This document shows, piece by piece, positions 2,782 through 25,655 of a stretch of 64,000 nt of DNA (position 1 is its first letter; every line of letters begins with the position of its first letter). The stretch covers positions 5,042,501-5,106,500 of the forward strand of contig NC_008027.1 in NCBI RefSeq assembly GCF_000026105.1, in the 5' to 3' direction. Both the position numbers and the translations under genes were made by a program. Below the pieces are notes generated by a model. The model ran no database searches. It was not told the DNA's origin and was given only the letters and a program-made list of their open reading frames with translations. The stretch comes from Pseudomonas entomophila L48. Its GTDB lineage: Bacteria > Pseudomonadota > Gammaproteobacteria > Pseudomonadales > Pseudomonadaceae.

Positions 2782-2817
2782 GAAACAGCTCCCTTGAAAC
2801 ATGAATGAGGTGAAGGT

Positions 2818-3882: not shown

Positions 3883-3926
3883 GCAAGTACTCCTGTAATG
3901 GGTGTGGTGAATCCGTTCACGCTTTT

Positions 3927-6134: not shown

Positions 6135-7349
6135 TTATTGCGCCAGGCTGAGAATCCGGCTGGCGGCTCGGTGGGCACCCAGTCCATCGGGCGCGGCGAC
6201 CCGCTGGTGAGCACCGAAATAGGTCGGCGCCGCGGTGTCCTTGTCCAGCTCGGCACCGATCAGCTCGGCGATCCGCCCGGCCTCGCAACCCAGGTAGGTC
6301 GGGAAGCCCAGGCGCCCCAGGCGGTCGAGCGCCTCGGCCTCGTGGTACTCGGACTTCGATGGCAGCACGAACAAGGTCGGAATGTTCAACGCGGCGATTT
6401 CGGTCACGGTGATCCAGCCCGGCGCCGACACCAGCAGGCTGGCTTCGCGCAGCAGGCCCATCCAGTCCGGGTAGTACGGCACGCTGATGACGCCTTCGCG
6501 CGGGGCGATGTCCTGGCGGCCGAGCAGCACCATCTTCAGCTCCGGGCGTTCGGCGCGCAGGCGCTCGAAGGCTTCCAGGTAGCCGTTGAGCAGGTTCTGC
6601 TTGCTCTCGGCGAACATGGTGGTGCCGCTGATGGAGGCGACGACGAACGGCCCGTCGCCCAGGCCCAGGTCGGCGCGCACGGTGGAGGCGTTGGTCTGGG
6701 TGAAATCGCGGATCATCGGCCCGACGAAGTGCGCCTTGCCCGAGTGCAGCGCGCTGGCTACTGGCGTGCCGTTGTCCATTTCCGGGATGTAGGGCTTGTC
6801 GGTCAGCACCAGCTGGCTCTGCTCGATCATCCACGAGAACTGCTTGTGCAAGGCCAGGCGCGCCCGGTTCAGGTCTTCGGCGTTGAGCTCGAAACCACCT
6901 TCGCTCAGGTCCTCGTCGGTCAGCTGGCAAAGGGTGAAGTCATAGCGCTCGGTGACGAACACCAGGGGCGTGCGGCTGAAGATCGCCGCCAGGCAAGCCG
7001 CCATGTTGAAGTCGGAAATCACCACGCGTGGCTTGTGTTCCTCGATGATCGCCAGGTAGGCCAGCATGCGTTCGCTGGACAGGAACGTGTTGGAAATATA
7101 GCCGGCGATATAGCTGCCCCAGTCGAGCTGGCGCGACAGGTTGCTCTTTTTCGAATAGTCCATCAGTTGCCCGGCGACATCGATCACGCCGATGCCCGAG
7201 CCTTCGAACATCGGGGTGAACACGTCCTGCAGCGAGGCCAGGGCCACCTTCAGGTCGATATCGGGGTTGCGATCCTTCAGGGCACGGCCGATCGACAGCA
7301 CGCGCATGTTGTGACCGGAACCGGTGGGTGCGGGGGCGAACAGAATCAT
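6135..7349 (-). CDS. GT1/MurG-like glycosyltransferase
   Basis: A 404-residue GT-B enzyme. The N-terminus (FAPAPTGSGHNMRVLSIGRAL) carries the glycine-rich acceptor-side loop and the GHxxR pattern of MGT/MurG-type transferases. The C-terminal half has VVASISGTTMF, VISVPYYPDWMGLLREASLLVSAPGWITVTEIAALNIPTLFVLP and the donor-binding SEYHEAEAL region. The ATG at 7349 overlaps the acyltransferase stop (ATGA) and has AAGGAGG upstream, so translation is coupled. The likely donor is the dTDP-4-keto-6-deoxyhexose, or a derivative, made by the operon's RmlA and RmlB. The acceptor is unknown. There is no membrane anchor, so it acts in the cytoplasm. Confidence 0.8.
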   Translation of the reverse strand: MILFAPAPTGSGHNMRVLSIGRALKDRNPDIDLKVALASLQDVFTPMFEGSGIGVIDVAGQLMDYSKKSNLSRQLDWGSYIAGYISNTFLSSERMLAYLAIIEEHKPRVVISDFNMAACLAAIFSRTPLVFVTERYDFTLCQLTDEDLSEGGFELNAEDLNRARLALHKQFSWMIEQSQLVLTDKPYIPEMDNGTPVASALHSGKAHFVGPMIRDFTQTNASTVRADLGLGDGPFVVASISGTTMFAESKQNLLNGYLEAFERLRAERPELKMVLLGRQDIAPREGVISVPYYPDWMGLLREASLLVSAPGWITVTEIAALNIPTLFVLPSKSEYHEAEALDRLGRLGFPTYLGCEAGRIAELIGAELDKDTAAPTYFGAHQRVAAPDGLGAHRAASRILSLAQ

Positions 7350-8317
7350 GCGACTTCCTCCTTGAGTTGAATGATGCCTTTGACTACCGAGTGTGCAGGT
7401 ACATCGCGAATGACCACGGCGTAGGGTTCGACCACCACGTCGTCGCCAAGGGAAACAGGGCCGACGATCAATGCGCCGGTACCGATGCGGCAACGCTTGC
7501 CGATACGAATGGGGGCGGCTTTCCAGGGCAGCGAGCGGTAGCCGTGGTCATGGGAGGACGACACCAGGGTGACCTGGTCGTCGAGCTGGCTGTGTTCGCC
7601 GATGGCGACACCACCGGCCCCTTCGATGACCACGCCACGGCCCAGACCGACGTGCTCGCCCAGGGCGATACCGCCTTGCTCGTGCATGCCACCGCGCCGG
7701 GTGCTGCGGCCGATCAGCACGCAGTCCTCACCGATGCGCACCGAGGCGCCGCCGGACAGTTCGGCGTCGATCAGCGCGCTGTCGGCGATATGCCAGGCAC
7801 TGAGCTGCGGGTTCTGCTGGTGCACGAGGTGCAATGCGCAGGAAGCGCGATCGAGGAAAGAAGGCAGGCCTTCGCGCTGGCGCTTGAGGACTTTCTGCAA
7901 GACGGGCGCCGGGTCGGGCCAGCCATCCTCGCTGACCTGGCGACGGGCGATCACCCGTGCCGGGCGGCCGACGACGATGCAGTCCTGCTCGACATCTTCA
8001 GTGACCAGGGCACCTGCGGCCACCACGGCCCCGGCACCGATATGCACACCGGGCAGAAGGGTTGCCCGGGCGCCGATCCAGGCGCCACGGCCAACACGGA
8101 TGGGCTGTTCCTTGTTGCCGCGGGCGATGACGCCGGTGGCCAGCATGCCACGATCGGCGACATCCAGGTGCTCGAGGCTGCACTTGAAACCGATGAAGCA
8201 GCCTTGCCCCAGGGTCACGCCCTGGAGGTGATTGCCGGCACGAACCCAGCTGGCATCACCAATGCGGGTGTCGGACGAAACGCGCGTCCCGACTTCGACA
8301 AGCCATGTTGTCTGCAT
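7346..8317 (-). CDS. Double left-handed beta-helix (hexapeptide) acyltransferase
   Basis: A 323-residue protein with two hexapeptide-repeat helices. The first spans about residues 5-125 (RIGDASWVRAG ... VGRGAWIGARATLLPGVHIGAGAVVAAGALVTEDV, closing with VGRPARVIARR). A helical linker follows, then the second helix spans about 180-318 (VRIGEDCVLIGR ... IAIG/VAIGEH ... IGTGALIVGPVSLGDDVVV). SSSHDHGY in the second half could carry the catalytic His. Most family members have a single helix, so this is a tandem fusion. The start at 8317 has AAGGGA seven bases upstream. It is the first gene of the operon, under the tandem GTAC operators, and probably acetylates the sugar or the aglycone. Confidence 0.78.
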   Translation of the reverse strand: MQTTWLVEVGTRVSSDTRIGDASWVRAGNHLQGVTLGQGCFIGFKCSLEHLDVADRGMLATGVIARGNKEQPIRVGRGAWIGARATLLPGVHIGAGAVVAAGALVTEDVEQDCIVVGRPARVIARRQVSEDGWPDPAPVLQKVLKRQREGLPSFLDRASCALHLVHQQNPQLSAWHIADSALIDAELSGGASVRIGEDCVLIGRSTRRGGMHEQGGIALGEHVGLGRGVVIEGAGGVAIGEHSQLDDQVTLVSSSHDHGYRSLPWKAAPIRIGKRCRIGTGALIVGPVSLGDDVVVEPYAVVIRDVPAHSVVKGIIQLKEEVA

Positions 8318-8484
8318 CACACAATCCCTTGCCTGTTCGGATGCAGCGCGTGGTTTCGCCGTGGCGAAAGTCAGACGTGCATCCCGGTTGCGAATCCTTG
8401 CATGGGGTGTCGCCACTCTGGCGCGACCTGCTGTTCAGGCCTGCCGATTTCGAGGGTTTCAAGCCGCCCTGCGAAGCCAATAAT

Positions 8485-8521
8485 GTACTAGTCAATTAGT
8501 ACTGTTCGCATATCCTAGTAC
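8485..8521 (-). promoter_or_regulatory. Tandem GTAC-N10-GTAC operators upstream of the acyltransferase operon
   Basis: GTAC at 8485 and 8499 form a perfect inverted repeat (GTACTA-GTCAAT-TAGTAC). A second site, GTTC at 8504 and GTAC at 8518, begins exactly 19 bases later. The same two-site layout recurs at 18744-18780. The sites are 168 bases upstream of the operon's first ATG. They are inferred to bind the TetR protein encoded at 8741-9352. Confidence 0.7.
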
Positions 8522-8655
8522 AGACAAAATGCCTAGGCAACACGTTTTCTGTGCTGGTCGTTAGAAAATTTACAGGCAGTCAAGATGCACAAACAGGTTT
8601 CGATTGTGTGAAAACAGGCTGAATTTATCGTGGAATCTGCACATAAATCCACAGG

Positions 8656-8697
8656 CAAGAAAAAACGCACCCGGCCACTCATGTGCCCGGATGCGTT
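8656..8697 (-). terminator. Intrinsic terminator of the tetR gene
   Basis: AACGCACCCGG pairs with CCGGATGCGTT, and on the minus strand the hairpin is followed directly by a TTTTTT run. It lies 44 bases downstream of the tetR stop and isolates that gene from the acyltransferase operon. The rest of 8318-8740 holds the tandem operators and no convincing gene. Confidence 0.85.
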
Positions 8698-8740
8698 GAG
8701 ACAAACACAATGGCTGGCCAAAGGCCAGCAAACGGAGGGG

Positions 8741-9352
8741 TCAGTGCGCGAGAGGATCAGGGACGACGGCGCCCCAATTGCCCATGGCGTGGCCTGCGAC
8801 TTTTTCCAGCGCATCGCGCGGCGAACCATCGCGCGCCACCATGGCCATGCCGCGCTGTACCACGCCGTAGTAGTTGGCCAGGCTCTCGCAGTCGACATGC
8901 TCGCCGATCTCACGGCTGGCCTGCCCAAGGCGCAGGCGGTTTTTCAACATCTCGAAGGGTTTGCAGCGCAGCACCTTGAGCCCGACCCTGAGGTTGGGTA
9001 ACGGGGAATTGAGGTCGGTCTGGGTGACGAAGCAACCGTGGGGGCGGTCTTCTCGGGTGAGGATCCTGGCGGTTGCCAGCAGAACGGCCTGGATCGAGTC
9101 CTGCGCCCGTTCGTACTTGTACAGCTCGCTCCAGATTTCCTCGCCAACCGTGGACCAGTAAAGCTCCAGCGCTTCGAGGAACAGGTCCTCCTTGGAGCCG
9201 AAGGCGGCATAGAGGCTGGGTGACTTGATCTTCATCACCCCCATCAGTTCGCTCAGCGACGTGCCATCGTAGCCCTTGTCCCAGAACAGCAGCATGGCCT
9301 TGACCAGCGCCTCGTGACGATCGAACTCCCGGGGTCTTCCACGACCACTCAT
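8741..9352 (-). CDS. TetR-family transcriptional regulator, probable regulator of the locus
   Basis: A 203-residue one-component regulator. Residues about 5-55 form the TetR DNA-binding domain (GRPREFDRHEALVKAMLLFW, then DKGYDGTSLSELMGVM with the helix-turn-helix, then SLYAAFGSKEDLF). The rest is a helical ligand-binding domain with GCFVTQTD, seen in the AefR/ComR-like branch. The start at 9352 has AGGGAGAAG before it; an ATG at 9388 lacks this. It is divergent from the flavin reductase-ubiC pair, and a GTAC-N10-GTAC palindrome sits between them, the normal arrangement for an autoregulated repressor. The same motif precedes the other operons of the locus. The ligand is unknown; the pathway's product or an intermediate is a reasonable guess. 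Confidence 0.9.
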   Translation of the reverse strand: MSGRGRPREFDRHEALVKAMLLFWDKGYDGTSLSELMGVMKIKSPSLYAAFGSKEDLFLEALELYWSTVGEEIWSELYKYERAQDSIQAVLLATARILTREDRPHGCFVTQTDLNSPLPNLRVGLKVLRCKPFEMLKNRLRLGQASREIGEHVDCESLANYYGVVQRGMAMVARDGSPRDALEKVAGHAMGNWGAVVPDPLAH

Positions 9353-9502
9353 ATCTACTTCTCCCTTCAAACAACGGGTGGATCGCAACCTGGGCAGTCA
9401 CAACCCGGATCCCACTGCGCCCCCAGGCAGCCATGACCTGCAGGCCTTGCGCGACAAGGCTTGCAGCGGCAATACGTGAACGGCGTTACAAAAAGAATTG
9501 TA

Positions 9503-9524
9503 TTGTACTAATACATCCGTACAA
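9503..9524. promoter_or_regulatory. GTAC-N10-GTAC operator in the tetR/flavin reductase divergent promoter
   Basis: TTGTAC (9503-9508) and GTACAA (9519-9524) form a 22-bp palindrome. An overlapping repeat, GTATT-GTACT-AATAC, spans 9500-9514. The site is 151 bases from the tetR start and 135 from the flavin reductase start. The 306-base gap 9353-9658 holds no other recognisable element. Confidence 0.75.
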
Positions 9525-9658
9525 TCGGCGGTGTGCGAATGATATGCGGCCGCCAGCGGGGTACGTCAACCCCGGCTTACAAACAATAAGTCATGGCGTA
9601 CATGCATGATCGCCAAAGCTTTTTCAGCGAAGATCACCCACAAAGGAGCGTTTCAGCA

Positions 9659-10156
9659 ATGGATGTTGCAACTTACAGAAATGCAATGGCCCGGCTCGGC
9701 GGCGCCGTCTCCATCATCAGCACCGATGGCCCCAGCGGTCGCCATGGCTTCACGGCCTCAGCCGTGTGCAGCGTCACCGACACCCCGCCCACCCTGCTGG
9801 TGTGCATGAACAACCAGTCGCGCCAGCGCAGCAGTTTTGAAGAAAATGGGGTGCTCTGTGTGAACGTGCTGCGCGGTGACCACCAGCACCTGTCGGGCAT
9901 CTTCGCCAACAAACACCTGGACATGGAGCAACGTTTTCAGGCAACGCCCTGGTCCACCGGGCACAGCGGCGCGCCGACCATGGACGAGGCGCTGGTCTGC
10001 TTCGACTGCCGGATCAGCGAAATCCACACGGTGGGCAGCCACAGCATCTTCTATTGCCAAGTGCTGAACATCGACAGCGCCCAGCACCCGGAAGGGTTGA
10101 TCTATTTCGACCGTGCCTATCATCGCGTCGCCGCACCCGACCAGTCCGCGGCCTGA
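9659..10156 (+). CDS. Flavin reductase (RutF/HpaC type)
   Basis: About 165 residues, the usual length for the small NAD(P)H:flavin oxidoreductase that feeds reduced FMN or FAD to two-component monooxygenases. Signature segments are YRNAMARLGGAVSIISTDGPSGRHGFTASAVCSVTDTPP (split-barrel flavin-binding core), LCVNVLRGDHQHLSGIF, and a C-terminal IFYCQVLNI-YFDRAYHR region with the conserved Y-x-x-R/H. The ATG at 9659 is chosen over one at 9593 because AAAGGAG is ten bases upstream and family members begin at this point. The chorismate lyase-like gene follows 22 bases later. The natural partner is the group D monooxygenase at 17530-18681, which appears to be under the same operator. Confidence 0.88.
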   Translation: MDVATYRNAMARLGGAVSIISTDGPSGRHGFTASAVCSVTDTPPTLLVCMNNQSRQRSSFEENGVLCVNVLRGDHQHLSGIFANKHLDMEQRFQATPWSTGHSGAPTMDEALVCFDCRISEIHTVGSHSIFYCQVLNIDSAQHPEGLIYFDRAYHRVAAPDQSAA

Positions 10157-10178
10157 AGACTTCCGGAGAACACGCGTC

Positions 10179-10736
10179 ATGGACAATCTCTGGACTTCGC
10201 TGCCACTGCCTGGCCTGAGCGACGATCAACGCCACTGGCTATTTGCTCCAGGCTCGCTGACCTTGCGCCTGAAGGCGCTAGGCCGGTTCAGCCTGGAGGT
10301 GACCCAGCAGCGGATCGATTTCCCCGAACCTGGTGAAGCCCATGCCTTGGGCTGCACCACGGACAGCCCTGCCTGGATCCGTGAAGTGGCCTTGAAAATC
10401 GACGACCAGGTGATGGTCTGCGCCCGCAGCCTGACCCCCATGCGCGAGCGCCGGCCAGCCTGGCCGGAGCTCGCCGGCTACGGCGGCGAGCCGTTGGGCA
10501 GCATGCTGTACAACACACCGGATATTCACCGCGGCGCTTTCGAATGCCAACGCCCGCAGGCCGATGACCCGCTGTCGCGCCTGGCCACGTCACTTGGCCA
10601 GCCAAGCGGCAAGCTGCTGGCCCGCCGTTCGCGCTTCCTGCGCGACGGCCAGCCACTGCTGATCGCCGAATGCTTCGTCGAGGGTTTCTGGGCGTTGCTG
10701 CAGGAGCGGAGCGCGCCGCTGAAACTGGCTATCTGA
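10179..10736 (+). CDS. Chorismate pyruvate-lyase (UbiC-like)
   Basis: 185 residues, close to the UbiC length. Chorismate lyase splits chorismate into 4-hydroxybenzoate and pyruvate. Residues equivalent to the E. coli active site are present: Arg69 in WIREVAL, the PLGSMLY turn (105-111), and Glu164 in LLIAECFVEGFW, with RRSRFLRDGQPL before it as in UbiC. The start at 10179 follows CCGGAGA. It is not beside ubiA, and it shares an operon with a flavin reductase under the TetR-type operator. It is therefore probably a dedicated copy supplying 4-hydroxybenzoate, or a close relative of it, to this locus rather than to ubiquinone synthesis. That separation of roles is inference. Confidence 0.85.
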   Translation: MDNLWTSLPLPGLSDDQRHWLFAPGSLTLRLKALGRFSLEVTQQRIDFPEPGEAHALGCTTDSPAWIREVALKIDDQVMVCARSLTPMRERRPAWPELAGYGGEPLGSMLYNTPDIHRGAFECQRPQADDPLSRLATSLGQPSGKLLARRSRFLRDGQPLLIAECFVEGFWALLQERSAPLKLAI

Positions 10737-10766
10737 GCCAAGGGCGCGCTCGCGGGGGGAGGCGAA

Positions 10767-11126
10767 TCAGCCTTCTTCCAGGCGGGCTTCGTTGTCGCGA
10801 ATGACCTGCGAGGTGTGCGGGTCTTTGTCGACCGCGTCGAGCAGGGAGCTGAGCAAACCTGGGAAGCGGGCTTCCAGGTCATCCCGGCGGATCGACAGCA
10901 AGTTCTCACGACCATAAGGGCGTTGCCAGATCACGCCGCTGTCGCGCAGCACGCGCCAGTGGTGGGTCATGGTCGATTTGGAGGCACCTTTGAGGATGCG
11001 CCCGCAAGGGTGCTCTTCGCCATCGGCGAGGACCTTCAGCACGGTCAGGCGCAACGGATTGCCAAGTGCTGTCAGGACGTTTTCCAGGCGGATCTGCTCG
11101 ATGCTGGGGTGGTTGGCAGTGTACAT
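10767..11126 (-). CDS. ArsR-family winged-helix regulator
   Basis: 119 residues with a single winged helix: LENVLTALGNPLRLTVLKVLADGEEHPCGRIL, then SKSTMTHHWRVLRDSGVIWQRPYGRENLLSIRRDDLEARFPGL. The STMTHHWRVLRDSGVI recognition helix is of the ArsR/SmtB kind. The metal-binding ELCVCDL motif is absent, so it is more likely of the organic-ligand or redox branch than metal-sensing. The start at 11126 has GAGG seven bases before it. It is convergent with the ubiC-like gene. An inverted repeat 206 bases upstream may be its own operator. No adjacent divergent gene reveals its target. Confidence 0.85.
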   Translation of the reverse strand: MYTANHPSIEQIRLENVLTALGNPLRLTVLKVLADGEEHPCGRILKGASKSTMTHHWRVLRDSGVIWQRPYGRENLLSIRRDDLEARFPGLLSSLLDAVDKDPHTSQVIRDNEARLEEG

Positions 11127-11331
11127 GCAATAACCTCAATAGCCTTACAAGGATCACCACGCCCCGGATCGCTTGCGCGGTACCGTCCGTGGTTTCCCCG
11201 TATTGATCAGGCGCGATTCCATGTCGCGCTCCTGGGAAGCCGAGTCCGAACCTGGCAATACCCCGTGGGGACAGCATGTTCCCAACTACCTAGGGCCATC
11301 AGTCGATGGCTGCCTGCCTCTGGAATCACGA

Positions 11332-11351
11332 CTGTTTGTTAGTACGAACAG
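11332..11351. promoter_or_regulatory. Inverted repeat upstream of arsR
   Basis: CTGTT-N10-AACAG lies 206 bases upstream of the ArsR-family gene, close to an AT-rich stretch (TATACACCATTG). It is a candidate operator for that regulator. The remainder of the 640-base gap 11127-11765 holds a REP doublet and no convincing gene. Confidence 0.35.
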
Positions 11352-11525
11352 TGTAGGACTATACACCATTGTTACAACCGTTCGCGAGCCAATCGTGTTG
11401 CATGTGCTACCCGGGTGCATCAAGGTGCAACCCATTTAGCCTTGTAAAACAGGACGTTGTGCATTGCGACGGATTTAGAAAGGGGTGTGTTTCAAGGTGT
11501 AAAGCGCGGGTTTTTCGTTGGAGGA

Positions 11526-11703
11526 GTTGTAGCGCTCTTGAGACCGGGCGCCGCCTGCGCGGCGCATCGCGGATGAATCCGCTCCTACATCGGTTGCAAC
11601 GTGCCGCACCTGCGAGGCCGAATGATCCCGAAGAAAACCTGTAGGAGCGGATTCATCCGCGATGCGCCGCACAGGCGGCGCTCGATCTCGTAGGCGCTGC
11701 AAC
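11526..11703. repeat. Long REP doublet with about 64-base inverted arms
   Basis: An arm starting at 11526 and ending in CCGCTCCTACA pairs with an arm starting TGTAGGAGCGG at 11640 and ending at 11703. About 50 bases separate them. The pairing extends well beyond the usual 25-35-base REP core (GCGCCGCCTG and GTTG-AGCGC are also matched). It lies between opmD and arsR. Confidence 0.75.
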
Positions 11704-11765
11704 TCTCCGGGCGAACACTTGAAAGCCAACGCCAGGTGCAACCCCGGCGCCGGCTGAACCAGCAT

Positions 11766-13205
11766 TCAACGAACAGCGCTTGGCTCGGGCTCGTAGCCGC
11801 CCCCAAGTGCAGTAACCAGGCTCACCGCCGAGTCGATCTGCTTGCTGCTGAGCAACGCCAGGCGCATTTCATCCTCGATCAACTGCTCTTCGATATTCAG
11901 CGAATCGAGGAAATTGTTTTCCCCGACCTCGAACCGTTCGACAGCCAGATCGAAGGACGACTGAGCCGTATCCCGCGCGGTGCGTTGCAGGCCGATCTGC
12001 CGGTTCACCGCCTGCAACTCGGTCACCGACGTCGCCACCTGGTGCAGTGCCGTGTTCAGGGTCGAGTTGTAACCGGCGATCGCCAGGTCCAGGTCGGCGT
12101 TGCTCTGCTTGAGCTCGGAGCGCAAGCGCCCGGCATCGAACAAAGGCAAGGTCACGGTCGGCGCGATGTTCCAGAAACGGCTCACGCTGTCGTTGAAACT
12201 GTCACCGGACATGGCATGGATGCCGCCCGCCGCACGCAGGTTGATGTTGGGGTAGAAGCGCGTCTTCACCGACGCCACGGTCTGAGTCTGCGCCTCGACT
12301 CGCCAACGCGCCGCGACAATGTCGGGGCGACGCCCCAGCAGTTCGGCGGGCAGGTTTTCCGGCAAGGCGGCTTCGTCGCTCCTGAGCGGCTTGGGCCGGG
12401 CTATGTCGTGGGCACCATCGACGCCAGTGCCCAGCAACGCCGAGAGCTGCAGGCGGGCGACCTGCACATCGCTCCTGGCCCCCAGCAAGCTGGCCTCGGC
12501 ACGTGCCACCAGGCCATCGACCCGCTGCAACTGGGACTTGTTGTCCAGGCCGTTGTGGTAGCGATCGCCGGTCAGGCTCTGCAGGTTGCGCAAGCGCTTG
12601 AGGTCGCGCTCGCTGAGGTCGACCACGTCCCAGGCGTAGGTCAGCTGGTTGTAGGCCTTGACCACGTTGGCCGCCAGCAGCAGGCGCGCCGACTGCACCT
12701 CGACCTCCGCCGCCCGCGCCTGGCTGACCGAGGCCTCCCAGGCACTGCGCTTGCCGCCCCACAGGTCGAGGTCGTAGTCGAAGGTCACGCCCAGGCTGCG
12801 CACGGTGACATAGCGGTTGCCCTGCCCCGCGTAATCTTCGCTGCGCGACAGCCGCGAGCGCTTCACGTCGCCGAAGGCGTCCACCTGCGGCGCCCGGTCG
12901 GCGCCGTAGTATTCCTGGTAGGCGTTGGCCTTGTCGGCCCGCGCCCGCACTTCCTGCAACCCTGGGTTGTTCTGCCAGGCTTTGGCCACCAGCCCGTCCA
13001 GCTGGGCGTCGCCGTAGCGCTGCCACCACTGCCCTTGCGGCCAGGGAGCGGCCGGCAAACGGGCGTCGGCCAGGGTAGTCGACGGCGCGCCTTCGGGGGT
13101 GAGCAGGGTTTGACGGTGGTCGATGCCGGCGTGGTTGACGCAACCACTCAGGGCCACCAGGGCCGCCAGCGACAGCGGCCATGCACAACGTGTGAGTTTC
13201 AACAT
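11766..13205 (-). CDS. opmD: RND efflux outer-membrane lipoprotein (OpmD/OprM type)
   Basis: 479 residues of the NodT/OprM factor family: a trimeric outer-membrane channel with a periplasmic alpha-barrel. The N-terminal signal ends in a lipobox, LVALSGC, so Cys22 would be lipidated. Two structural repeats are visible: LDGLVAKAWQNNPGLQEVRARADKANA with DAFGDVKRSR, and LLGRRPDIVAARWRVEAQTQTVASVKTRFYPNINL with PLFDAGRLRSELKQSNADLDLAI. The gene lies four bases after the RND pump gene and completes a three-gene MexHI-OpmD-like system. The closest named counterpart that I recognise is OpmD; the assignment rests on the company of MexI. Confidence 0.85.
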   Translation of the reverse strand: MLKLTRCAWPLSLAALVALSGCVNHAGIDHRQTLLTPEGAPSTTLADARLPAAPWPQGQWWQRYGDAQLDGLVAKAWQNNPGLQEVRARADKANAYQEYYGADRAPQVDAFGDVKRSRLSRSEDYAGQGNRYVTVRSLGVTFDYDLDLWGGKRSAWEASVSQARAAEVEVQSARLLLAANVVKAYNQLTYAWDVVDLSERDLKRLRNLQSLTGDRYHNGLDNKSQLQRVDGLVARAEASLLGARSDVQVARLQLSALLGTGVDGAHDIARPKPLRSDEAALPENLPAELLGRRPDIVAARWRVEAQTQTVASVKTRFYPNINLRAAGGIHAMSGDSFNDSVSRFWNIAPTVTLPLFDAGRLRSELKQSNADLDLAIAGYNSTLNTALHQVATSVTELQAVNRQIGLQRTARDTAQSSFDLAVERFEVGENNFLDSLNIEEQLIEDEMRLALLSSKQIDSAVSLVTALGGGYEPEPSAVR

Positions 13206-13209
13206 GCGA

Positions 13210-16200
13210 TTATCCCCGGGCCGGCGCGTCGATGGCCTGGCCTTCAGTGCTGTCGGCAGGCGTTGCCTTGGGCTGCCTGGCGGTGCTCAGCAGGCTGTAG
13301 ACCGTCGGCAGGATGAACAGGGTGAACAAGGTGCCGATCAGCATCCCGACCACGATCACCAGGCCCAGGCCGAAGCGGCTGTTGGCCCCGGCACCGGTGG
13401 CGAAGATCAGCGGCGCCAGGCCCACGACCATGGCCGCGGTGGTCATCAGGATCGGCCGCAGGCGCACTTCGGCGGCGTGGCGGATCGCCTCCAGCTTGCC
13501 CATGCCGTGGTGCATCTGCAGTTCGTTGGCGAACGCCACCATCAGGATGCCGTGCTTGCTGATCAAGCCAATCAACGTGATCAGGCCGATCTGCGTGTAG
13601 ATGTTCAGCGAGGTGTAGCCCAGCGCCAGCGGCAGCAGTGCCCCGCAGATCGACAGCGGCACGCTGATCAGGATGATGAACGGGTCGATGAAGCTCTCGT
13701 ACTGCACCGCCAGCACCAGGTAGATGATCACCAGGGCGAAGGCGAAGGTCAGCACCAGGGTGTTGCCCTCCTGCACGAACTGGCGGGTATCCGACTGCCA
13801 GTCGTAGGTGTAGCCAGCCGGGAACTGCTTGGCCTGTTCGGTGAGGAAGGCCACGGCGTCGCCCAGGGTCACGCCCGGCAGGGGGATGGCCTGGAAGGTC
13901 GCGGCGTTCTGCTGGTTGAACTGCGGGCGCAGGTTCGGCTCGACCTTGACCTTGATGGTGGCCAGGGTCGACAGCGGCACCAGGTTGCCGTGCTGGTCCT
14001 TGACGTAGTAGCGGTTCAGCGCCTCGGGGGTCAGGCGATCCTGCGGCACGGATTGCGGAATCACGTCGTAGGAGCGGCCGTGGTAGGCGAAGCGGTTGAC
14101 GTACTTCTCACCGATCAGGCTGTTGAGGGTCTTGCCGATGTCGCTCATGCGGATGCCCATGGCGTTGGCCTTGGCCCTGTCGACCTGCACCTCGACCACC
14201 GGGTTGTTGAAGTCCAGGTCACTGTCGACCACGGCGAACAGGCCGCTGCTGCGGGCACTGGCCTTGAGCTTGTCCATCACGTCGAACAGCGATTGGTAGT
14301 CCTGGTCGCTGCGCACCACCATCTGCACCGGCAGACCGCCGGTGGAGCCCGGCAGCGGCGGCATCTGGAAGACGAAGATGCTGGTGCCTTCGATCTGGCT
14401 GACGCGTTGTTGCAGCAACGGCTGGATCTGGTTGGCGCTGCGTTCGCGCTTGTCCCAGTCCACCAGGTTGATGCCGCCGACACTGTTCGACAGACCGTCG
14501 GTGCCGTTGGCCACCCAGTCGCTGTAGCCTTCCGGGAACTCCTTGAACACTTCGTGGAGCTTTTCCGAGAACGCCTCGACGTAGTTGATGTTGGCGTGCT
14601 GCGGGGCCTTGATCGCGGTCAGCAGGATGTTCTGGTCTTCCAGTGGCGCCAGTTCGCTTTGCGCCGACTTGTACAGCACCGGCAGGCTGAAGAAGATCAC
14701 CAGCGCGATGGCCAGGCTGATCCAGCGCTTGGACAAGGACACGCCCAGCAACTTGCCATAGCGCTCGGCCAGCCAGTTGAAGAAGGCCTCGGCCTTGTGC
14801 GCCATGTAGCCTTCGCTCGACTTGGCGTCGAGCAGCCGGGTGCTCATGATCGGCGACAGGGTCAGGGCGACGATGCCGGACACCACCACCGAACCGGCCA
14901 GGGTCAGCGCGAACTCCTTGAACAGGGTACCGGTCAGGCCGCCCATCAGGCCGATCGGCGCGTACACCGCCGCCAGGGTGAAGGTCATCGCCACCACCGG
15001 CCCGGCCACTTCGCGGGCACCCAGCAAGGCGGCTTCGAACGGCGTCTTGCCGTCCTCGATATGGCGGTGGACGTTCTCCACCACGACGATCGCGTCATCC
15101 ACCACCAGGCCGATCGCCAGCACCATCGCCAGCAGCGTCAGCAGGTTCAGGCTGAAGCCGAACATCTGCATCAGCACCGCGGCACCGAGCATCGACAGCG
15201 GGATGGTCACCAGCGGGATCAGCACGGTGCGGAAGGTGCCCAGGCACAGGTAGATCACCAGGACCACGATCACCAGCGCCTCGATCAGGGTGTGGGTCAC
15301 CTCGTCGATGGACGACTGGATGAAGTGCGCCACCTCGAACGGGATCTGCACCTTCACGCCTGGCGGCAGGGTCTTCTCGATTTCCGGGATCAGCGCCTTG
15401 ACCGCATTGACGATGGTCAGCGGGTTGCCGGTGGGCGCGGCGTCGAGGCCGAGGAACATCGCCGGGACCGCGCTCATCGCGCCACTGGTGTCGAACGACG
15501 CGGCGTTGAGCTCGACGGTGCCGACATCACGCACGCGGATGATGTTGCCGTTGTCGTTGCGCAGGACCATGTCCTTGAAGTCTTCGACGCTGGTCAGGTC
15601 GGTGTTGATGCGCAGGTTGCTGACCACGTACAGGCCTTTGACCTGGCCGGGCGCGGCCTGGAAGTTGTTCTCCTTGATCGCGTCGGCCACGTCCTGGCCG
15701 GTGATGCCGTAGCCGGCCAGCAGGTCAGGGTCCAGCCATAGGCGCATGGACATGGTCTGGCCGCCCAGCACGTTGATCTTGGCCACGCCGTCGATGCCCG
15801 AGAACATCGGTTCGACCACCCGCGAGATGTAGTCGGCCACTTCCGGCATCGACAGCTGCTCGCTGGAGAACGCCACGTAGGCGACGCTGGTGAAGCCGCC
15901 GGAGGTGCGCTCGATTACCGGGTCATAGGCTTCGGCAGGCAGCTTGTAGCGGATCTGGTTGACCTTGGCCATCACCTCGGTGAGCGCATTGATCGAGTTG
16001 CTGTTGAGCTGCATGCGCACGGTGACCAGGCTCTTGCCCTGGGTCGAACTGGACGACAGGTAGTCGATGCCCTCGACCGAGGCCACGGCCTGGCTGATCG
16101 GCTGGGTCACGAAACCCTGCATCAGCTCGGAAGAGGCACCCGGGTACTGGGTGGTGATGGTGATGGTCGAGGTTTCCAGCATCGGGTACTGGCGCACCGG

Positions 16201-16296
16201 CAGCTTGGTGAACGCCATGATCCCGAACAGCAGGATCAGCGTGCTGACCACCAGCGCCAGCACGGGCCGGCGCAGGAAAATATCGGTGAAATGCAT
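13210..16296 (-). CDS. mexI: RND multidrug/metabolite efflux pump (MexI-like)
   Basis: 1028 residues, the normal length of an HAE1-type inner-membrane proton-driven exporter. It begins MHFTDIFLRRPVLALVVSTL with the first membrane helix. Two periplasmic porter halves follow in which EGIDYLSSSS, the QYPGASSELM loop and the LPVQMVVRSDQDY and LDFNNPVVEVQVDRAKANA segments resemble P. aeruginosa MexI. Helix 4 has GLVVDDAIVVVENVHRHIE with the proton-relay Asp pair, and the last quarter has IGLITLIGLISKHGILMV. MexI exports phenazine precursors and quorum signals, which fits a pump co-transcribed with a biosynthetic monooxygenase. The MexG (DoxX-like) subunit is missing. Confidence 0.88.
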   Translation of the reverse strand: MHFTDIFLRRPVLALVVSTLILLFGIMAFTKLPVRQYPMLETSTITITTQYPGASSELMQGFVTQPISQAVASVEGIDYLSSSSTQGKSLVTVRMQLNSNSINALTEVMAKVNQIRYKLPAEAYDPVIERTSGGFTSVAYVAFSSEQLSMPEVADYISRVVEPMFSGIDGVAKINVLGGQTMSMRLWLDPDLLAGYGITGQDVADAIKENNFQAAPGQVKGLYVVSNLRINTDLTSVEDFKDMVLRNDNGNIIRVRDVGTVELNAASFDTSGAMSAVPAMFLGLDAAPTGNPLTIVNAVKALIPEIEKTLPPGVKVQIPFEVAHFIQSSIDEVTHTLIEALVIVVLVIYLCLGTFRTVLIPLVTIPLSMLGAAVLMQMFGFSLNLLTLLAMVLAIGLVVDDAIVVVENVHRHIEDGKTPFEAALLGAREVAGPVVAMTFTLAAVYAPIGLMGGLTGTLFKEFALTLAGSVVVSGIVALTLSPIMSTRLLDAKSSEGYMAHKAEAFFNWLAERYGKLLGVSLSKRWISLAIALVIFFSLPVLYKSAQSELAPLEDQNILLTAIKAPQHANINYVEAFSEKLHEVFKEFPEGYSDWVANGTDGLSNSVGGINLVDWDKRERSANQIQPLLQQRVSQIEGTSIFVFQMPPLPGSTGGLPVQMVVRSDQDYQSLFDVMDKLKASARSSGLFAVVDSDLDFNNPVVEVQVDRAKANAMGIRMSDIGKTLNSLIGEKYVNRFAYHGRSYDVIPQSVPQDRLTPEALNRYYVKDQHGNLVPLSTLATIKVKVEPNLRPQFNQQNAATFQAIPLPGVTLGDAVAFLTEQAKQFPAGYTYDWQSDTRQFVQEGNTLVLTFAFALVIIYLVLAVQYESFIDPFIILISVPLSICGALLPLALGYTSLNIYTQIGLITLIGLISKHGILMVAFANELQMHHGMGKLEAIRHAAEVRLRPILMTTAAMVVGLAPLIFATGAGANSRFGLGLVIVVGMLIGTLFTLFILPTVYSLLSTARQPKATPADSTEGQAIDAPARG

Positions 16297-16305
16297 GATC
16301 GTTCC

Positions 16306-17391
16306 TCAGCGCTGGACGTTGAGCCGCACGGTGTCGGCCACAGGCTCGATGGCGACGCCGTCCTGCAGCTTGATCTGCCCGGAGGTCACCACTTCGTCGC
16401 CTGCTTGCAGGCCTTTGGCAACCACCGCCAGGCCATCGCGGCGCTCGCCGATGCTGATGTTCTGCCGGCGGACCTTCTTCAGGCCGTTTTCTTCGTAGGT
16501 GACGAACACACTTTCGCCATAGGCGTTGTAGGTGATCGCGGTTTCCGGCACCACCAGCTCATCCTTGCCCGGCAGCTGTACCTTGACCTTGGCGTACATG
16601 CCCGGGCGCAGCTTGCCCTGGTGCTCCTTGAGCAGCGCCTGGACCTTGATCACGTGGGAGTTGTTCACCTGTGGGTCGATGGCGCTGACCGTGCCTTCGA
16701 ACTTCATGCCGCTCCACGCATCGACAGCCAGCTCGACGGCCTGGCCCTTGACGATGTTGGCGCTGTCGCGCTCGGAGACGGTGAAGTTGACCCGCAGGCC
16801 ATTGAGGTCGGTGAGCGTGGCCAGTGGGCGACCGGCCTGCACGTAGTCTCCCAGGTGAACCTGGCGAATGCCCAGTTCACCGGAGAACGGCGCGCGGATG
16901 GTCTTCTGCGCGATCTGCGCCTGGATGTTCTCGAGGTTGCCCTTGGCCGCGTCGAACTGCGCCCGGGCGCTGTCCAGCGCGCGCTGGCTCTCGGCGCCGT
17001 TGCGCGCCAGGGCCTGCAGGCGCCCGTAGTGGGTCTTGGCGGCTTCGAACTCACCACGCAGGCGAGTCAGCTCGCCTTCTTCCGGCGAGGTGTTGAGCTT
17101 GACCACCACGTTGCCGGCCTTGACCTTGTCGCCCGAGTCGAAGGCCAAGGCCACCACCTGGCCGCTGACTTCGGCCGACAGCAGTACCTGCTGGCGGGCC
17201 TCGATCTGGCCGATGGCAACCTGGTAATAGGTGTACGGCACCTGCTTGACCTTGGCCAGGGCCGCGGGTACCAGAACGGGGGCGGGCGCCGGCTCTTCTC
17301 CATGAGCCACGTAACGCAGTGACAAGCCCCCCAGTACCGCAAGCGTGACCACTGACGCCGTTACTTTCCCTAGATAGTGTTTCGCCCGCAT
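16306..17391 (-). CDS. mexH: RND efflux periplasmic adaptor (MexH-like)
   Basis: A 361-residue membrane fusion protein. An uncleaved or signal-type N-terminal helix (KVTASVVTLAVLGGLSLRYV) is followed by the barrel-sandwich lipoyl halves (VLLSAEVSGQVVALAFDSGDKVKAGNVVVKLN and IRAPFSGELGIRQVHLGDYVQAG). These flank a hairpin of helices (LTRLRGEFEAAKTHYGRLQAL ... ALDSARAQFDAAKGNLENIQAQIAQ), then the beta-barrel and membrane-proximal domains. It would link the RND pump, nine bases downstream, with the outer-membrane channel. About 140 bases separate it from the upstream monooxygenase gene, with no terminator, so read-through from that promoter is likely. Confidence 0.88.
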   Translation of the reverse strand: MRAKHYLGKVTASVVTLAVLGGLSLRYVAHGEEPAPAPVLVPAALAKVKQVPYTYYQVAIGQIEARQQVLLSAEVSGQVVALAFDSGDKVKAGNVVVKLNTSPEEGELTRLRGEFEAAKTHYGRLQALARNGAESQRALDSARAQFDAAKGNLENIQAQIAQKTIRAPFSGELGIRQVHLGDYVQAGRPLATLTDLNGLRVNFTVSERDSANIVKGQAVELAVDAWSGMKFEGTVSAIDPQVNNSHVIKVQALLKEHQGKLRPGMYAKVKVQLPGKDELVVPETAITYNAYGESVFVTYEENGLKKVRRQNISIGERRDGLAVVAKGLQAGDEVVTSGQIKLQDGVAIEPVADTVRLNVQR

Positions 17392-17529
17392 GACTTACCC
17401 CCTGTCGCCTGGATCGGCAACCTTCTGGAAATTCAACATTTAGAAAACTCCAACCTGCACGCTGCTGGCCCGGTCGGGCTGACCGGGGTGGCATCGGCTG
17501 AATGTCGGTGACTGGCGATGAACGCCGGA

Positions 17530-18681
17530 TCAATAGATCTTGCTGGTCTGCGCCTTGCCCAGGTACAGCTTGCCCAGGCCGAACAGGTTCAACGGCGACA
17601 GGACGAAGTGCTTGGAGCCGACATGGATGTCGCGCAGGCTGCGCTCGAGCGCGCAGGTCTTGTAGACCGCCTTGGAGCCGGTCAGCCCATGCAACTGGTT
17701 CACGGCATTGAGCGCATGCTCGTTGAGCAGCGAGCCGGCCAGCCCGACACGTACGTTCATGCCGTCGCCATCGGCCAGTTGCGACTGGGTGATGGCGTCT
17801 TCCAGCAGCAACTGGGCGCTGTGCAGTTGCGCCAGGACGATGCCGGTCTTCTCGCTGGTCAAGGCGGCCACGCCCTCGTCGGCCGGCACGGTGCGCTCGT
17901 CGCGGAAGTACTCCAGCGCGGCCTTGGCCACACCCAGCACGGTGCCCATCGCGGCGATGGTGCCGAAGTCGTAGTAACCCACCTTGTAGGCCAGCGAGGC
18001 GCGTGGCGCCGGGGCCTTCTTCAGCGATTCAGGATCGACGCTGTAGTGCGCCGGCACAAAGACATTGCTGCATTCGAAATGATTGCTGCCGGTACCGCGC
18101 ATGCCCATCACATCCCAGGTCTTGAGGATGCGGCATTCGCTGCGTGGCACGAAGAGCATGCGCACCTGCGGCTGCGAACCGTCGGCGACTTCCTGCTTGA
18201 GGGTGGCCGTGCACACCAACCAGTCGGCATGCGCCGAACCGCTGGCGAAGCCCCACTTGCCGCTGACACGGTAGCCACCTTCGACGGCGATGGCTTCGCC
18301 GCCCGAGTGGATCGCACCGACCACGAAGCCGTTGCACCCGCTGTAGATCTCTTGTGCAGCCTGCTCAGGGAGGTAGTCGGCCAGGCGACCCATGGCGACC
18401 TGCACCATCACCTGCCAGGACACCGAGGCGTCGAGGGCGGCGAGGCGCTGGACGATCTGCGAGATGACCCGCATGTCCAGCTGCTGGCCACCGAAGGCCT
18501 TGCTCACGCACAGACGGGAAAAGCCCAACTTGAACAGCTCGGCCATGACTTCAGGGTGGGTTTCGCCATGCTCTTCGGCGTAGTCGCGGTGCCGCAGGAT
18601 CAGCGGCCGGACCGCCTCGATACGGGCCATCCATTCTTCTGCCTCGGCAGGCAGGTCACGCCACTGCATCAATGTCTTCAT
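17530..18681 (-). CDS. Acyl-CoA-dehydrogenase-fold flavin monooxygenase (group D, two-component oxygenase)
   Basis: 383 residues with the acyl-CoA dehydrogenase fold, but closer in length and motifs to flavin-dependent hydroxylases such as HsaA or the p-hydroxyphenylacetate hydroxylase C2 subunit. Visible segments are EVMAELFKLGFSRLCVSKAFGGQQL, SVSWQVMVQVAMGRLADYLP, a central YRVSGKWGFASGSAHADW flavin/substrate segment, WDVMGMRGTGSNHFECSNVFVP, and a C-terminal ALERSLRDIHVGSKHFVLSP. The catalytic Glu of true dehydrogenases is not evident. The ATG at 18681 has AAGGAG six bases upstream. The reductase at 9659-10156 is the likely source of reduced flavin. It heads the transcript leading into mexH-mexI-opmD and has tandem GTAC operators 63 bases upstream. 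Confidence 0.8.
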   Translation of the reverse strand: MKTLMQWRDLPAEAEEWMARIEAVRPLILRHRDYAEEHGETHPEVMAELFKLGFSRLCVSKAFGGQQLDMRVISQIVQRLAALDASVSWQVMVQVAMGRLADYLPEQAAQEIYSGCNGFVVGAIHSGGEAIAVEGGYRVSGKWGFASGSAHADWLVCTATLKQEVADGSQPQVRMLFVPRSECRILKTWDVMGMRGTGSNHFECSNVFVPAHYSVDPESLKKAPAPRASLAYKVGYYDFGTIAAMGTVLGVAKAALEYFRDERTVPADEGVAALTSEKTGIVLAQLHSAQLLLEDAITQSQLADGDGMNVRVGLAGSLLNEHALNAVNQLHGLTGSKAVYKTCALERSLRDIHVGSKHFVLSPLNLFGLGKLYLGKAQTSKIY

Positions 18682-18743
18682 GTTCAGCTCCTTGCTGTGT
18701 GGGATGAATCCTGGGGTCCGTGTCGACATCGAACGAGGCCAAT

Positions 18744-18780
18744 GTACGCATACAGTCGTACTGTTGCAAGCCCCTCGTAC
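18744..18780 (-). promoter_or_regulatory. Tandem GTAC-N10-GTAC operators upstream of the monooxygenase-efflux operon
   Basis: Site 1 has GTAC at 18744 and 18758; its flanks AAT...TGTT are identical to those of the site at 8485. Site 2 has GTTG at 18763 and GTAC at 18777, again exactly 19 bases further on. The pair lies 63-100 bases upstream of the monooxygenase ATG, where promoter elements should be. Confidence 0.7.
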
Positions 18781-18931
18781 AATCTTTCTGTAAAGCGGGT
18801 TTGGAAACTGAGAAGACGAGTAATCAGCCGTAAGCACCGGCAAACATCAGGCAATGGCAGCGTTCGGCGGGATATCTGTAAGGCACCCGACAGAAAGGCA
18901 CGGCGCCCGGCGCCGTGCCGAGTGGCAGGTT

Positions 18932-19117
18932 TCAGCGTTCGTCGAAGGGGATGCCGCCCTTGGCCTTGTCACCGGGCGGGGCCTCGACGATTTGCACCAC
19001 CACGTGTTCACGGGCGATCTCGAAACTGTTGGCCACCGCCTCGGTCACCGAGCGCAGCAGTTTCTTCTTCTGCAGGTCGGAACGGCCGGCGGTTGCGTAG
19101 ACGATCACTTCTGGCAT
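18932..19117 (-). CDS. 4-oxalocrotonate tautomerase family protein
   Basis: 61 residues, the classic length of a short-chain 4-OT. After removal of Met the N-terminal Pro1 is the catalytic base (MPEVIVYATAGRSDLQKKKLL). The arginine-bearing segments and the EHVVVQIVEAPPGDKAKGG hairpin follow the family pattern. AAGGAG precedes the ATG. Tautomerases of this family interconvert keto and enol forms in aromatic catabolism and in some natural-product pathways. It is divergent from the luciferase-like monooxygenase, and a GTAC-type operator lies between them. The substrate is unknown, but its company suggests a step after ring oxidation. Confidence 0.88.
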   Translation of the reverse strand: MPEVIVYATAGRSDLQKKKLLRSVTEAVANSFEIAREHVVVQIVEAPPGDKAKGGIPFDER

Positions 19118-19208
19118 GTCGCTTCTCCTTAAGCGTGGGAATCCAGCGGGGTCGCCAACAGATTGCCGGCGACAGCACGATCATACGCCGAGGAAAAGGA
19201 GTTGAACA

Positions 19209-19226
19209 GTTCGCGTACATGCGTAC
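19209..19226. promoter_or_regulatory. Variant GTTC-N10-GTAC operator between tautomerase and luciferase-like genes
   Basis: GTTC at 19209 and GTAC at 19223 keep the 14-base half-site spacing. The flanks AACA...AATC match the other sites, and a third GTAC at 19215 overlaps. It lies 35 bases before the luciferase-like monooxygenase ATG and 91 bases before the tautomerase ATG. Confidence 0.6.
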
Positions 19227-19260
19227 AATCGCAACATTCGTCACAATTCAGGAGGCAAGG

Positions 19261-20346
19261 ATGCAATTCGGAATTTACAGCGTCGGCGACGTTACCCGCG
19301 ACCCGACCACAGGCCGTATCCCCAGCGAGGCCGAGCGCCTGTCGGCGATGGTGCGCATCGCCCTCAAGGCCGAGGAGGTCGGCCTGGACGTGTTCGCCAC
19401 CGGCGAGCACCACAACCCACCCTTCGTGACCTCGTCACCCACCACCCTGCTGGCGTTCATCGCCGCGCAGACCTCACGCCTGATCCTCTCCACCTCGACC
19501 ACGCTGATCACCACCAACGACCCGGTGCGCCTGGCCGAGGAGTATGCGGTGCTGCAACACCTGTCGGGCGGGCGCATGGACCTGATGCTCGGGCGCGGCA
19601 ACACCGCGCCGGTCTATCCCTGGTTCGGCAAGGACATCATGCAGGGCCTGCCGCTGGCGCTGGACAACTACGACCTGCTGCACCGCCTGTGGCGCGAGGA
19701 AAACATCGACTGGGAGGGCCGCTTCCGCACCCCGCTGCACCGCTTCACCTCGATCCCGCGGCCACTGGACAACCTGCCGCCGTTCGTCTGGCATGGCTCG
19801 ATCCGCACCCCGGAGATCGCCGAGCAGGCGGCGCGCCATGGCGATGGTTTCTTCGCCAGCCACATTCTCTGGCCCAAGGGGCACTTCCAGCGCATGGTGG
19901 CCTTCTACCGTTCGCGTTTCGCCCACTACGGCCACGGCACCCCGCAACAGGCCATGGTCGGGCTGGGCGGGCACATCTACGTCAACCGTGATTCCCAGGT
20001 CGCCCGCGAGCGCTTCCGCCCGTTCTTCGACAACGCGCCGGTGTATGGCCACGGCCCGTCGCTGGAAGAGTTCATGCGCGAGACGCCGCTGTCGGTCGGC
20101 AGCCCCCAGGAGATCATCGACAAGACCCTGACCTTCCGCGAGCAGTTCGGCGACTACCAGCGCCAGCTGTTCCTGTTCGACCATGCCGGCATTCCCTTGC
20201 CGGAGGTGCTGGACATGCTGGAGCTGTTCGGCAGCGAGATCCTGCCGGTGCTGCGCCGGGAAACCGCCAAGGGGCGCAACCCCGGCGCGGCCGAGCCGCC
20301 GACCCACGCCGGGCGGTTGGCGCAACGTGCCCAGGCCACCGATTGA
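19261..20346 (+). CDS. Luciferase-like (LLM) flavin monooxygenase
   Basis: 361 residues with a bacterial-luciferase TIM barrel that uses FMNH2 supplied by a separate reductase. Seen are LKAEEVGLDVFATGEHHNPPF (the GEHH motif), LAFIAAQTSRLILSTSTTLIT, RLAEEYAVLQHLSGGRMDLMLGRGNTAPVY and FVWHGSIRTPEIAEQAARHGDGFF, as in the CE1758-like branch. The ATG at 19261 follows AGGAGG. The C-terminus (about 25 residues from RRETAKGRNPG on) is low-complexity and variable in this family. It is convergent with hasF and divergent from the tautomerase. It would add a second oxidation to the pathway, or a ring- or side-chain-oxidative step; the substrate is unknown. Confidence 0.85.
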   Translation: MQFGIYSVGDVTRDPTTGRIPSEAERLSAMVRIALKAEEVGLDVFATGEHHNPPFVTSSPTTLLAFIAAQTSRLILSTSTTLITTNDPVRLAEEYAVLQHLSGGRMDLMLGRGNTAPVYPWFGKDIMQGLPLALDNYDLLHRLWREENIDWEGRFRTPLHRFTSIPRPLDNLPPFVWHGSIRTPEIAEQAARHGDGFFASHILWPKGHFQRMVAFYRSRFAHYGHGTPQQAMVGLGGHIYVNRDSQVARERFRPFFDNAPVYGHGPSLEEFMRETPLSVGSPQEIIDKTLTFREQFGDYQRQLFLFDHAGIPLPEVLDMLELFGSEILPVLRRETAKGRNPGAAEPPTHAGRLAQRAQATD

Positions 20347-23037: not shown

Positions 23038-23039
23038 GC

Positions 23040-24794: not shown

Positions 24795-24866
24795 CGATGA
24801 CCTCGACAAGCGAGGCAGCCACAGGCATTTGACCTGCAGCCGGCCGCCTCGCAAAATTCGGAGGCA

Positions 24867-24948
24867 CCACGGCCTGGGCCCGACAAGACGCGGGCCGTGG
24901 TGCGAGCAATGCGGCCAATGACGGTGCCATCCGTCATTGGCCTTTTTT
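24867..24948. terminator. Two strong hairpins between hasA and hasD
   Basis: Hairpin 1 (24867-24900) pairs CCACGGCC with GGCCGTGG. Hairpin 2 (24913-24942) pairs GGCCAATGACGG with CCGTCATTGGCC. In the hasA transcript hairpin 2 is preceded by AAAAAA and lacks a 3' U run; the U run faces the other strand. They probably protect hasA mRNA ends and reduce read-through into hasDEF, keeping haemophore in excess over its exporter. Confidence 0.65.
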
Positions 24949-24959
24949 CATGCCTGGCT

Positions 24960-25574: not shown

Positions 25575-25655
25575 AACGGTTCCTCGTTCTTGCACAGTGA
25601 AGGCGAAGGCGTGTTCCGTGCCTTCGCGTCGCCCGGAATGGGCAAACCCGGTGGA

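Follow-up and report, generated by a model that had tools for sequence, protein, structure and literature searches.

Paired GTAC repeats in a rare Pseudomonas entomophila biosynthetic locus are probable operators of an ArsR-family regulator

We analysed a stretch of 64,000 nucleotides from the genome of Pseudomonas entomophila L48 (contig NC_008027.1, positions 5,042,501 to 5,106,500; hereafter the window). It contains a biosynthetic locus in which paired half-sites of the type GTAC-N10-GTAC precede four transcription units. A preliminary description of this DNA had proposed that a TetR-family regulator encoded in the locus (8741..9352, − strand) binds them. We consider it very probable that the repeats are instead the operators of an ArsR-family repressor with a winged helix-turn-helix (10767..11126, − strand), which would occlude the promoters and be released by a metabolite or intermediate. 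ArsR is favoured over TetR as the binder because the motif persists in clusters that lack the TetR and because the regulator common to all cluster types is the ArsR-family protein.

Six half-site pairs are spread over four intergenic regions of the window. In each pair the half-site starts are 14 bases apart and the core is 18 bp; the sites were named S1a, S1b, S2, S3a, S3b and S4. S1a (GTACTAGTCAATTAGTAC; 8485..8502, GTAC/GTAC at 8485/8499) lies 5′ of the hexapeptide-transferase unit, and S1b (8504..8521, GTTC-N10-GTAC), an operator-like second copy, starts 19 bases after it. S2 (9505..9522, GTAC/GTAC at 9505/9519) is located between tetR and the flavin reductase gene. S3a (18744..18761, GTAC/GTAC at 18744/18758) lies 5′ of the unit for a hydroxylase and a resistance-nodulation-division (RND) pump; here too, a second copy, S3b (18763..18780, GTTG-N10-GTAC), starts 19 bases later. 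S4 (19209..19226, GTTC-N10-GTAC at 19209/19223) is found between the tautomerase and luciferase-like monooxygenase genes. The flanks AATGTAC...GTACTGTT are common to the sites at 8485 and 18744, and GTACAATC is common to the half-sites at 9519, 18777 and 19223. The preliminary description had given these four regions, the spacing, the second copies and the common flanks, all exactly. Its statement that the motif stands upstream of every unit applies to the four transcription units; it does not apply to the pump genes, which come after the hydroxylase, or to arsR, where there is no more than a weak variant at 11342.

The window contains three exact copies of GTAC-N10-GTAC, where 0.15 would be expected, and none of 100 shuffles reached three. 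In the whole 5.89-Mb genome, the bare motif was found at 32 places (reversed-pattern control, 90), 29 of them outside the locus; the five of these 29 that were inspected all fell within open reading frames (ORFs). As a genome-wide marker, the bare motif was therefore discarded. The extended forms behaved differently. TGTACKNRTACATNCGTACAATC with up to three mismatches gave two matches in the genome, both within the locus (control, 0), and AATGTAC-N10-GTACTGTT with up to two mismatches gave three, again all within the locus (control, 0). TGTWC-N10-GTACARTC with up to one mismatch gave seven, five in the locus and two elsewhere (control, 2 + 3). Thus, the genome scan suggested in the preliminary description bears out the extended forms, which are nearly confined to the locus, and the bare motif alone is weak evidence. 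When a position matrix was built from the six sites, all six took the top ranks in the window. When each site was omitted in turn from the matrix, its rank was still 6 to 9 with all positions and both strands of the window counted.

The sites overlap likely −10 boxes. Read on the gene strand, the GTAC nearest the gene runs into TACAAT for the flavin reductase, tetR and the luciferase-like gene, and into TACATT for the hydroxylase and the hexapeptide gene. Three of the 156 + strand GTACs in the window have a 5/6 match to a −10 box; they can only be the copies that read GTACAAT, at 9519, 18777 and 19223. S3a and S4 have fair −35 boxes (4/6). S4 spans TTGAAC-N16-TACAAT; in a stricter promoter scan it is the single promoter-like site of 18600-19350 and the only one of the sites to pass. 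The other −35 and −10 assignments are our own. For the tautomerase gene our rule yields no −10 box, and no good promoter was seen at the site. Because the sites overlap likely −10 boxes, the repeats look like operators.

The locus is rare. Among 298 genomes of the genus, the TetR is present at 98% identity in two others (L012, P. entomophila COR5, and G127 were counted once), and three further genomes from one named collection (UBA4617, P. defluvii WCHP16 and Pseudomonas sp. RIT-PI-S) encode it at 90-91%. We aligned the locus from these three and the three P. entomophila-type genomes. Gene order was identical in all six. In the sites, 96 of 108 positions were invariant, as compared with 414 of 951 elsewhere in the intergenic DNA (Fisher 7e-21, with columns that are not independent). 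S1b is kept in all six genomes. S3b is conserved at its ends and variable at its centre, as expected from half-site recognition. The alignment also bears on the weak candidate site 5′ of arsR (11342..11359, GTCC-N10-GTAC on the − strand), which, after the six sites, scores highest of all independent matches to the matrix in the window (12.6; the match ranked below it scores 10.8). This candidate is conserved in the six genomes and reads GTTC-N10-GTAC in UBA4617 and RIT-PI-S. An imperfect dyad, ACTGTTTGTTAGTACGAACAGT (11331-11352), is kept in the six genomes and overlaps it.

Next to these genomes stand clusters without the TetR. The hydroxylase has homologues of 57-59% identity in seven further genomes of the genus, and all seven carry a rearranged, diverged cluster. 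In the first four that were read, identities were 55-57% for the hexapeptide gene, 70-71% for the glycosyltransferase, 54% for the toroid protein, 82-83% for the RND transporter, 41-44% for the chorismate lyase and 54-55% for the flavin reductase. ArsR is 72-76% identical in all seven. No TetR match was found in the 20-kb stretch of any of the seven; a comparison of the TetR with L083, L086 and flanking stretches gave only E values of 3.9 and 7.3. The motif is kept nevertheless. These clusters contain 27 exact GTAC-N10-GTAC sites, which precede the luciferase-like, hydroxylase and flavin-reductase genes in 7/7 (the counterparts of S4, S3a and S2) and the hexapeptide gene in 6/7 (the counterpart of S1a; the L086 stretch stops before this place). 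A copy like S1b at the 19-base offset was not found within one mismatch in these clusters. An eighth genome without the TetR, G237 (L120), has a reduced module: the luciferase-like gene with the single exact site, the pump, ArsR and a hydroxylase match of 37 residues; sugar, lyase and TetR genes are absent from this stretch. In the eight genomes, the proteins most like the TetR reach 23-36% identity and are encoded elsewhere in the genome. Thus, in evolution the motif does not follow the TetR.

It does accompany ArsR. At E ≤ 1e-50, ArsR was found in 11 of the 298 genomes, namely the three with the TetR, the seven with diverged clusters and G237, and the recognition helix SKSTMTHHWRV is identical in both cluster types. 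In G071, where ArsR is 57% identical, an exact site lies between DsbA-like and esterase genes near arsR and a one-mismatch site lies at arsR itself. More remote Pseudomonas paralogues of 40-48% identity (L102-L119, leaving out the truncated L104 and L118 at a contig end) have GTTC-N10-GAAC just 5′ of the start in 16/16 aligned. This paralogue group, which may be PyeR-like, shares with ArsR an aligning helix-turn-helix, a conserved cysteine and an inverted repeat with 14-base half-site spacing 5′ of its own gene. It differs in its half-sites (GTTC...GAAC), in its helix (PKSSMSHHFRV) and in its local two-gene setting, as against a multi-unit cluster. The paralogue in the P. entomophila genome itself has its GTTC-N10-GAAC at L122:6199 and adjoins an old-yellow-enzyme gene. 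These paralogues indicate that the half-site changes with the helix and that the 14-base spacing stays.

Outside the genus, seven ArsR orthologues of 63-78% identity were obtained from 398 genomes of the phylum, and further loci were taken from plasmids. Exact sites lie 5′ of arsR in L126 and L127, and GTAC-N10-GAAC is found in L129-L132. In several non-Pseudomonas Gammaproteobacteria (L133, L134, L136, L138; L140:4991-7644), arsR is divergent from a gene for a paralogue of elongation factor G (EF-G) and the pair shares this operator type. For example, L133 and L134 have an exact site between arsR and an EF-G paralogue of 699-700 residues, and L136 and L138 have the pair with GTAC-N10-GAAC. 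L137 and L139 carry GTAC-N10-GAAC and a like-sized ORF in the same place, a candidate EF-G gene by size and position. An E. coli record (LZYWN_4), the sole and top match covering more than 12% of the query, has an annotated arsR-EF-G pair with GTAC-N10-GAAC. In the Pantoea plasmids L141, L143 and L153, arsR is divergent from a major facilitator superfamily (MFS) gene, with an exact site followed 25 bases later by a copy that has one mismatch. In L142 and L154 it is divergent from an acyl-CoA-dehydrogenase-like gene with GTTC-N10-GTAC, and in L142 a flavin reductase gene is next. No site was found in L135, where the neighbour is an MFS gene. We searched 460 bp at each of 22 outside loci (7 genomes, 14 of 33 plasmid records and 1 E. 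coli record): five have an exact site, as against 0.17 expected in shuffles, and 13 have a site within one mismatch, as against 2.5. In Burkholderia ubonensis and Streptomyces capparidis, the longest contigs with ArsR and with hydroxylase homologues are of equal size; this suggests, without proof, that the two genes travel together. No description of the cluster or of the ArsR/EF-G pairing was found in the literature searched, which did not cover most subscription journals.

The protein belongs to the ArsR/SmtB family by its helix-turn-helix domain (Pfam HTH_20, 34.3 bits against a cut-off of 27; NCBIfam HTH_metalloreg, 38.2, under the cut-off of 55). The inverted-repeat operators at target promoters, typical of the family, are present here at the sequence level. 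Metal sites of ArsR/SmtB proteins consist of CxC in helix three or of DxHx10HxxE in the final helix. Neither was seen in this ArsR, whose single cysteine lies in EHPCG and whose C-terminal part lacks the second pattern. Among solved structures, the nearest relative of the ArsR is RexT, an ArsR-SmtB repressor of Nostoc sp. PCC 7120 (PDB 7txm, E 1.7e-19). According to the available text of PMC8960804, RexT senses hydrogen peroxide via a vicinal disulphide through Cys40-Cys41, Arg61, Thr68 and Asn77, and controls a thioredoxin gene. In the alignment, with a numbering offset deduced from the Cys-Cys pair, our ArsR has a cysteine at the place of Cys41 and an arginine at that of Arg61, and Cys40, Thr68 and Asn77 are replaced by Pro, Gln and Leu. 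Unlike RexT, it has one cysteine and a biosynthetic regulon. Peroxide sensing of the RexT type is thus unsupported, with two of five sensing residues kept. We found 849 ArsR homologues and aligned 31 of them for the cysteine; Cys40 in the ArsR's own numbering was invariant in 31/31. Because one cysteine is invariant, thiol or electrophile sensing by ArsR is plausible, if unproven.

From the motif, its conservation, its co-inheritance with ArsR and its overlap with promoters, all of which can be read in the sequences, we infer binding, repression, release and a signal as follows. An ArsR winged-helix dimer would bind GTAC-N10-GTAC and tolerate GTTC or GTTG in one half. The sites would overlap the promoters of the four units, with the gene-proximal GTAC supplying the TAC of the TACAAT or TACATT −10 box, and bound ArsR would exclude RNA polymerase (promoter occlusion). 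On a signal, ArsR would leave the DNA. This would free the hexapeptide-transferase, glycosyltransferase, toroid and sugar genes, the flavin reductase and chorismate lyase genes, the hydroxylase and RND pump genes and the luciferase-like monooxygenase gene, probably also tetR and perhaps arsR. Most likely, the signal would be the metabolite of the cluster or a reactive (quinone-like) intermediate, and ArsR would perceive it close to the invariant cysteine.

Several observations weigh against this interpretation. In the window, arsR has only the weak upstream site. In the TetR-less clusters arsR follows the pump genes and has no site of its own, and in G237 the pump-arsR unit has none within one mismatch. 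The close relative L104, which is truncated (67% over 61 residues), lacks a site. So do 9 of the 22 outside loci within one mismatch (L128, L144-L146, L148-L152), among them three actinobacterial ones and L148 despite its divergent MFS gene, and in L147, one of the 13 positives, the site falls inside the upstream gene. As for the promoters, a scan of 8300-9700 found nothing, and the −35 boxes for S2 and S1 are poor (2-3/6). Moreover, genomes that contain the TetR always have both regulators.

The last point leaves some room for the TetR, alone or together with ArsR, as the binder at least in P. entomophila-type clusters, where it would have been recruited to pre-existing sites. S2 is located between tetR and the flavin reductase gene, and TetR and motif occur together in all six aligned genomes. 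The exact extended motif AATGTAC-N10-GTACTGTT is limited to 3 of the 298 genomes, twice in each, the same three in which the locus includes this TetR; its one-mismatch form is found in 13 others. In its own genome, the TetR has no paralogue better than E 6.7e-4. We nevertheless judge this explanation unlikely, because all seven clusters without the TetR keep the motif 5′ of the same units, a result that makes the TetR assignment of the preliminary description probably wrong. The spacer between tetR and the flavin reductase gene is 306 bp, which is not that of a close divergent pair. In the available part of a Streptomyces study (PMC3511530), three of four TetR-type regulators whose spacers exceeded 200 bp did not regulate the divergent gene, and this precedent also counts against TetR action at S2. 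Among remoter TetR relatives, none of 31 had such a site, with one mismatch allowed, in 320 bp of upstream sequence; this is a weak point, since 0.94 were expected by chance. The nearest solved relative of the TetR is CifR of P. aeruginosa (PDB 6nsn, E 1.1e-31), relevant only if TetR were the binder; according to the available text of PMC8244358, CifR acts as the repressor of a divergent operon, and epoxides bring about its release. Neither the available text of that paper nor that of PMC9736018 (PA3973 motif) contains a motif matching GTAC-N10-GTAC.

A regulator encoded outside the cluster might also bind the sites while ArsR merely travels with the cluster. The presence of ArsR with the sites is a correlation only, and in L083 a LysR gene (19107-19994) adjoins the flavin reductase gene. 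That LysR is not a common factor, since the window's cluster has TetR at this place. We regard an outside regulator as highly improbable: sites also lie at arsR in other families, beside quite different genes, and in the ArsR paralogues the half-site has changed correspondingly with the spacing unaltered. A likeness due to common promoter sequence (TACAAT/TACATT −10 boxes) or to chance, and not to an operator, would account for the overlap of half-sites with −10-like boxes and for the 32 bare motifs in the genome. It is scarcely credible, because both half-sites are kept at a fixed spacing across diverged clusters, the extended motif is nearly confined to the locus and the exact motif exceeds its expectation in the window.

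If ArsR is the binder, this rare and uncharacterised Pseudomonas cluster gains a testable regulator, operator and regulon, and the obvious guess, the adjacent TetR, is corrected. The operator could also help to locate other regulons of this ArsR subfamily. The genes in them (EF-G paralogue, MFS and RND pumps, flavin hydroxylase) give a hint of how the metabolite acts. There is a slim chance that the subfamily is an undescribed, widespread sensor in which the single invariant cysteine serves to detect reactive, antibiotic-like metabolites of one class, and that it times production and export of such a compound in Pseudomonas and, on the same operator, induces an EF-G paralogue or MFS pump as protection in enterobacteria. 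If such a shared sensor were real, EF-G would be indicated as a target of the cluster's product.

By our count, 12 genes directly follow the four operator regions. The left unit starts with the hexapeptide acyltransferase gene (7346..8317, −; Hexapep). It continues with a putative glycosyltransferase (6135..7358, −; no Pfam family, a weak MJ1255-type match of 29 bits), the toroid gene (3927..6098, −) and two genes named by eye from their ORFs, an rmlB-like dTDP-glucose dehydratase gene (2818..3948, −) and an rmlA-like glucose-1-phosphate thymidylyltransferase gene (1867..2802, −). The second unit comprises the flavin reductase (9659..10156, +; Flavin_Reduct, RutF/HpaC-like below cut-off; start chosen from the ribosome-binding site and the L083 homologue) and a UbiC-like chorismate lyase (10179..10736, +; Chor_lyase). 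In the third, an HsaA-like, acyl-CoA-dehydrogenase-like flavin hydroxylase (17530..18681, −; profile matches) is followed by the membrane fusion protein (16306..17391, −), the RND transporter (13210..16296, −) and the outer-membrane factor (11766..13205, −) of the pump; these three were named by eye from their ORFs, the last also from gene order. The fourth is the CE1758-family luciferase-like monooxygenase gene (19261..20346, +; TIGR04036, 669.7 bits against a cut-off of 479.1). Up to four predicted regulon genes may be added: arsR, tetR (TetR_N; ATG at 9352 chosen by us), the gene for a 4-oxalocrotonate tautomerase-like protein (18935..19120, −; profile matches) and an esterase gene (514-1752). 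The local regulon of about 13 genes under one operator type in the preliminary description thus survives with 12-16 predicted genes, probably without TetR as its regulator. Because a chorismate lyase and a two-component flavin hydroxylase are present, the gene content suggests a hydroxybenzoate-derived, possibly glycosylated product; together with the luciferase-like monooxygenase and the RND pump, these enzymes would fit a phenolic compound.

The 723-residue toroid protein has a domain of the prenyltransferase/squalene-cyclase type toward its C-terminus (Prenyltrans; the PDB matches are prenyltransferase beta subunits), and its N-terminal side has no family match. Immediately upstream of S1, relative to the hexapeptide gene, is a second conserved block, TGCCTAGGCA ... 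ACGTTTTCTGTGC (8529-8567), a possible site of another factor. In the arsR-pump spacer, an insert-like stretch at 11460-11700 has inverted similarity like that of repetitive extragenic palindromic (REP) elements (GGATTCATCCGC). It is present in the three P. entomophila-type genomes and absent from UBA4617, P. defluvii and RIT-PI-S. Directly after the luciferase-like gene, a has-type haem-acquisition locus (20363-28412) with type I exporter genes, a HasA-like protein and a TonB receptor was recognised by eye.

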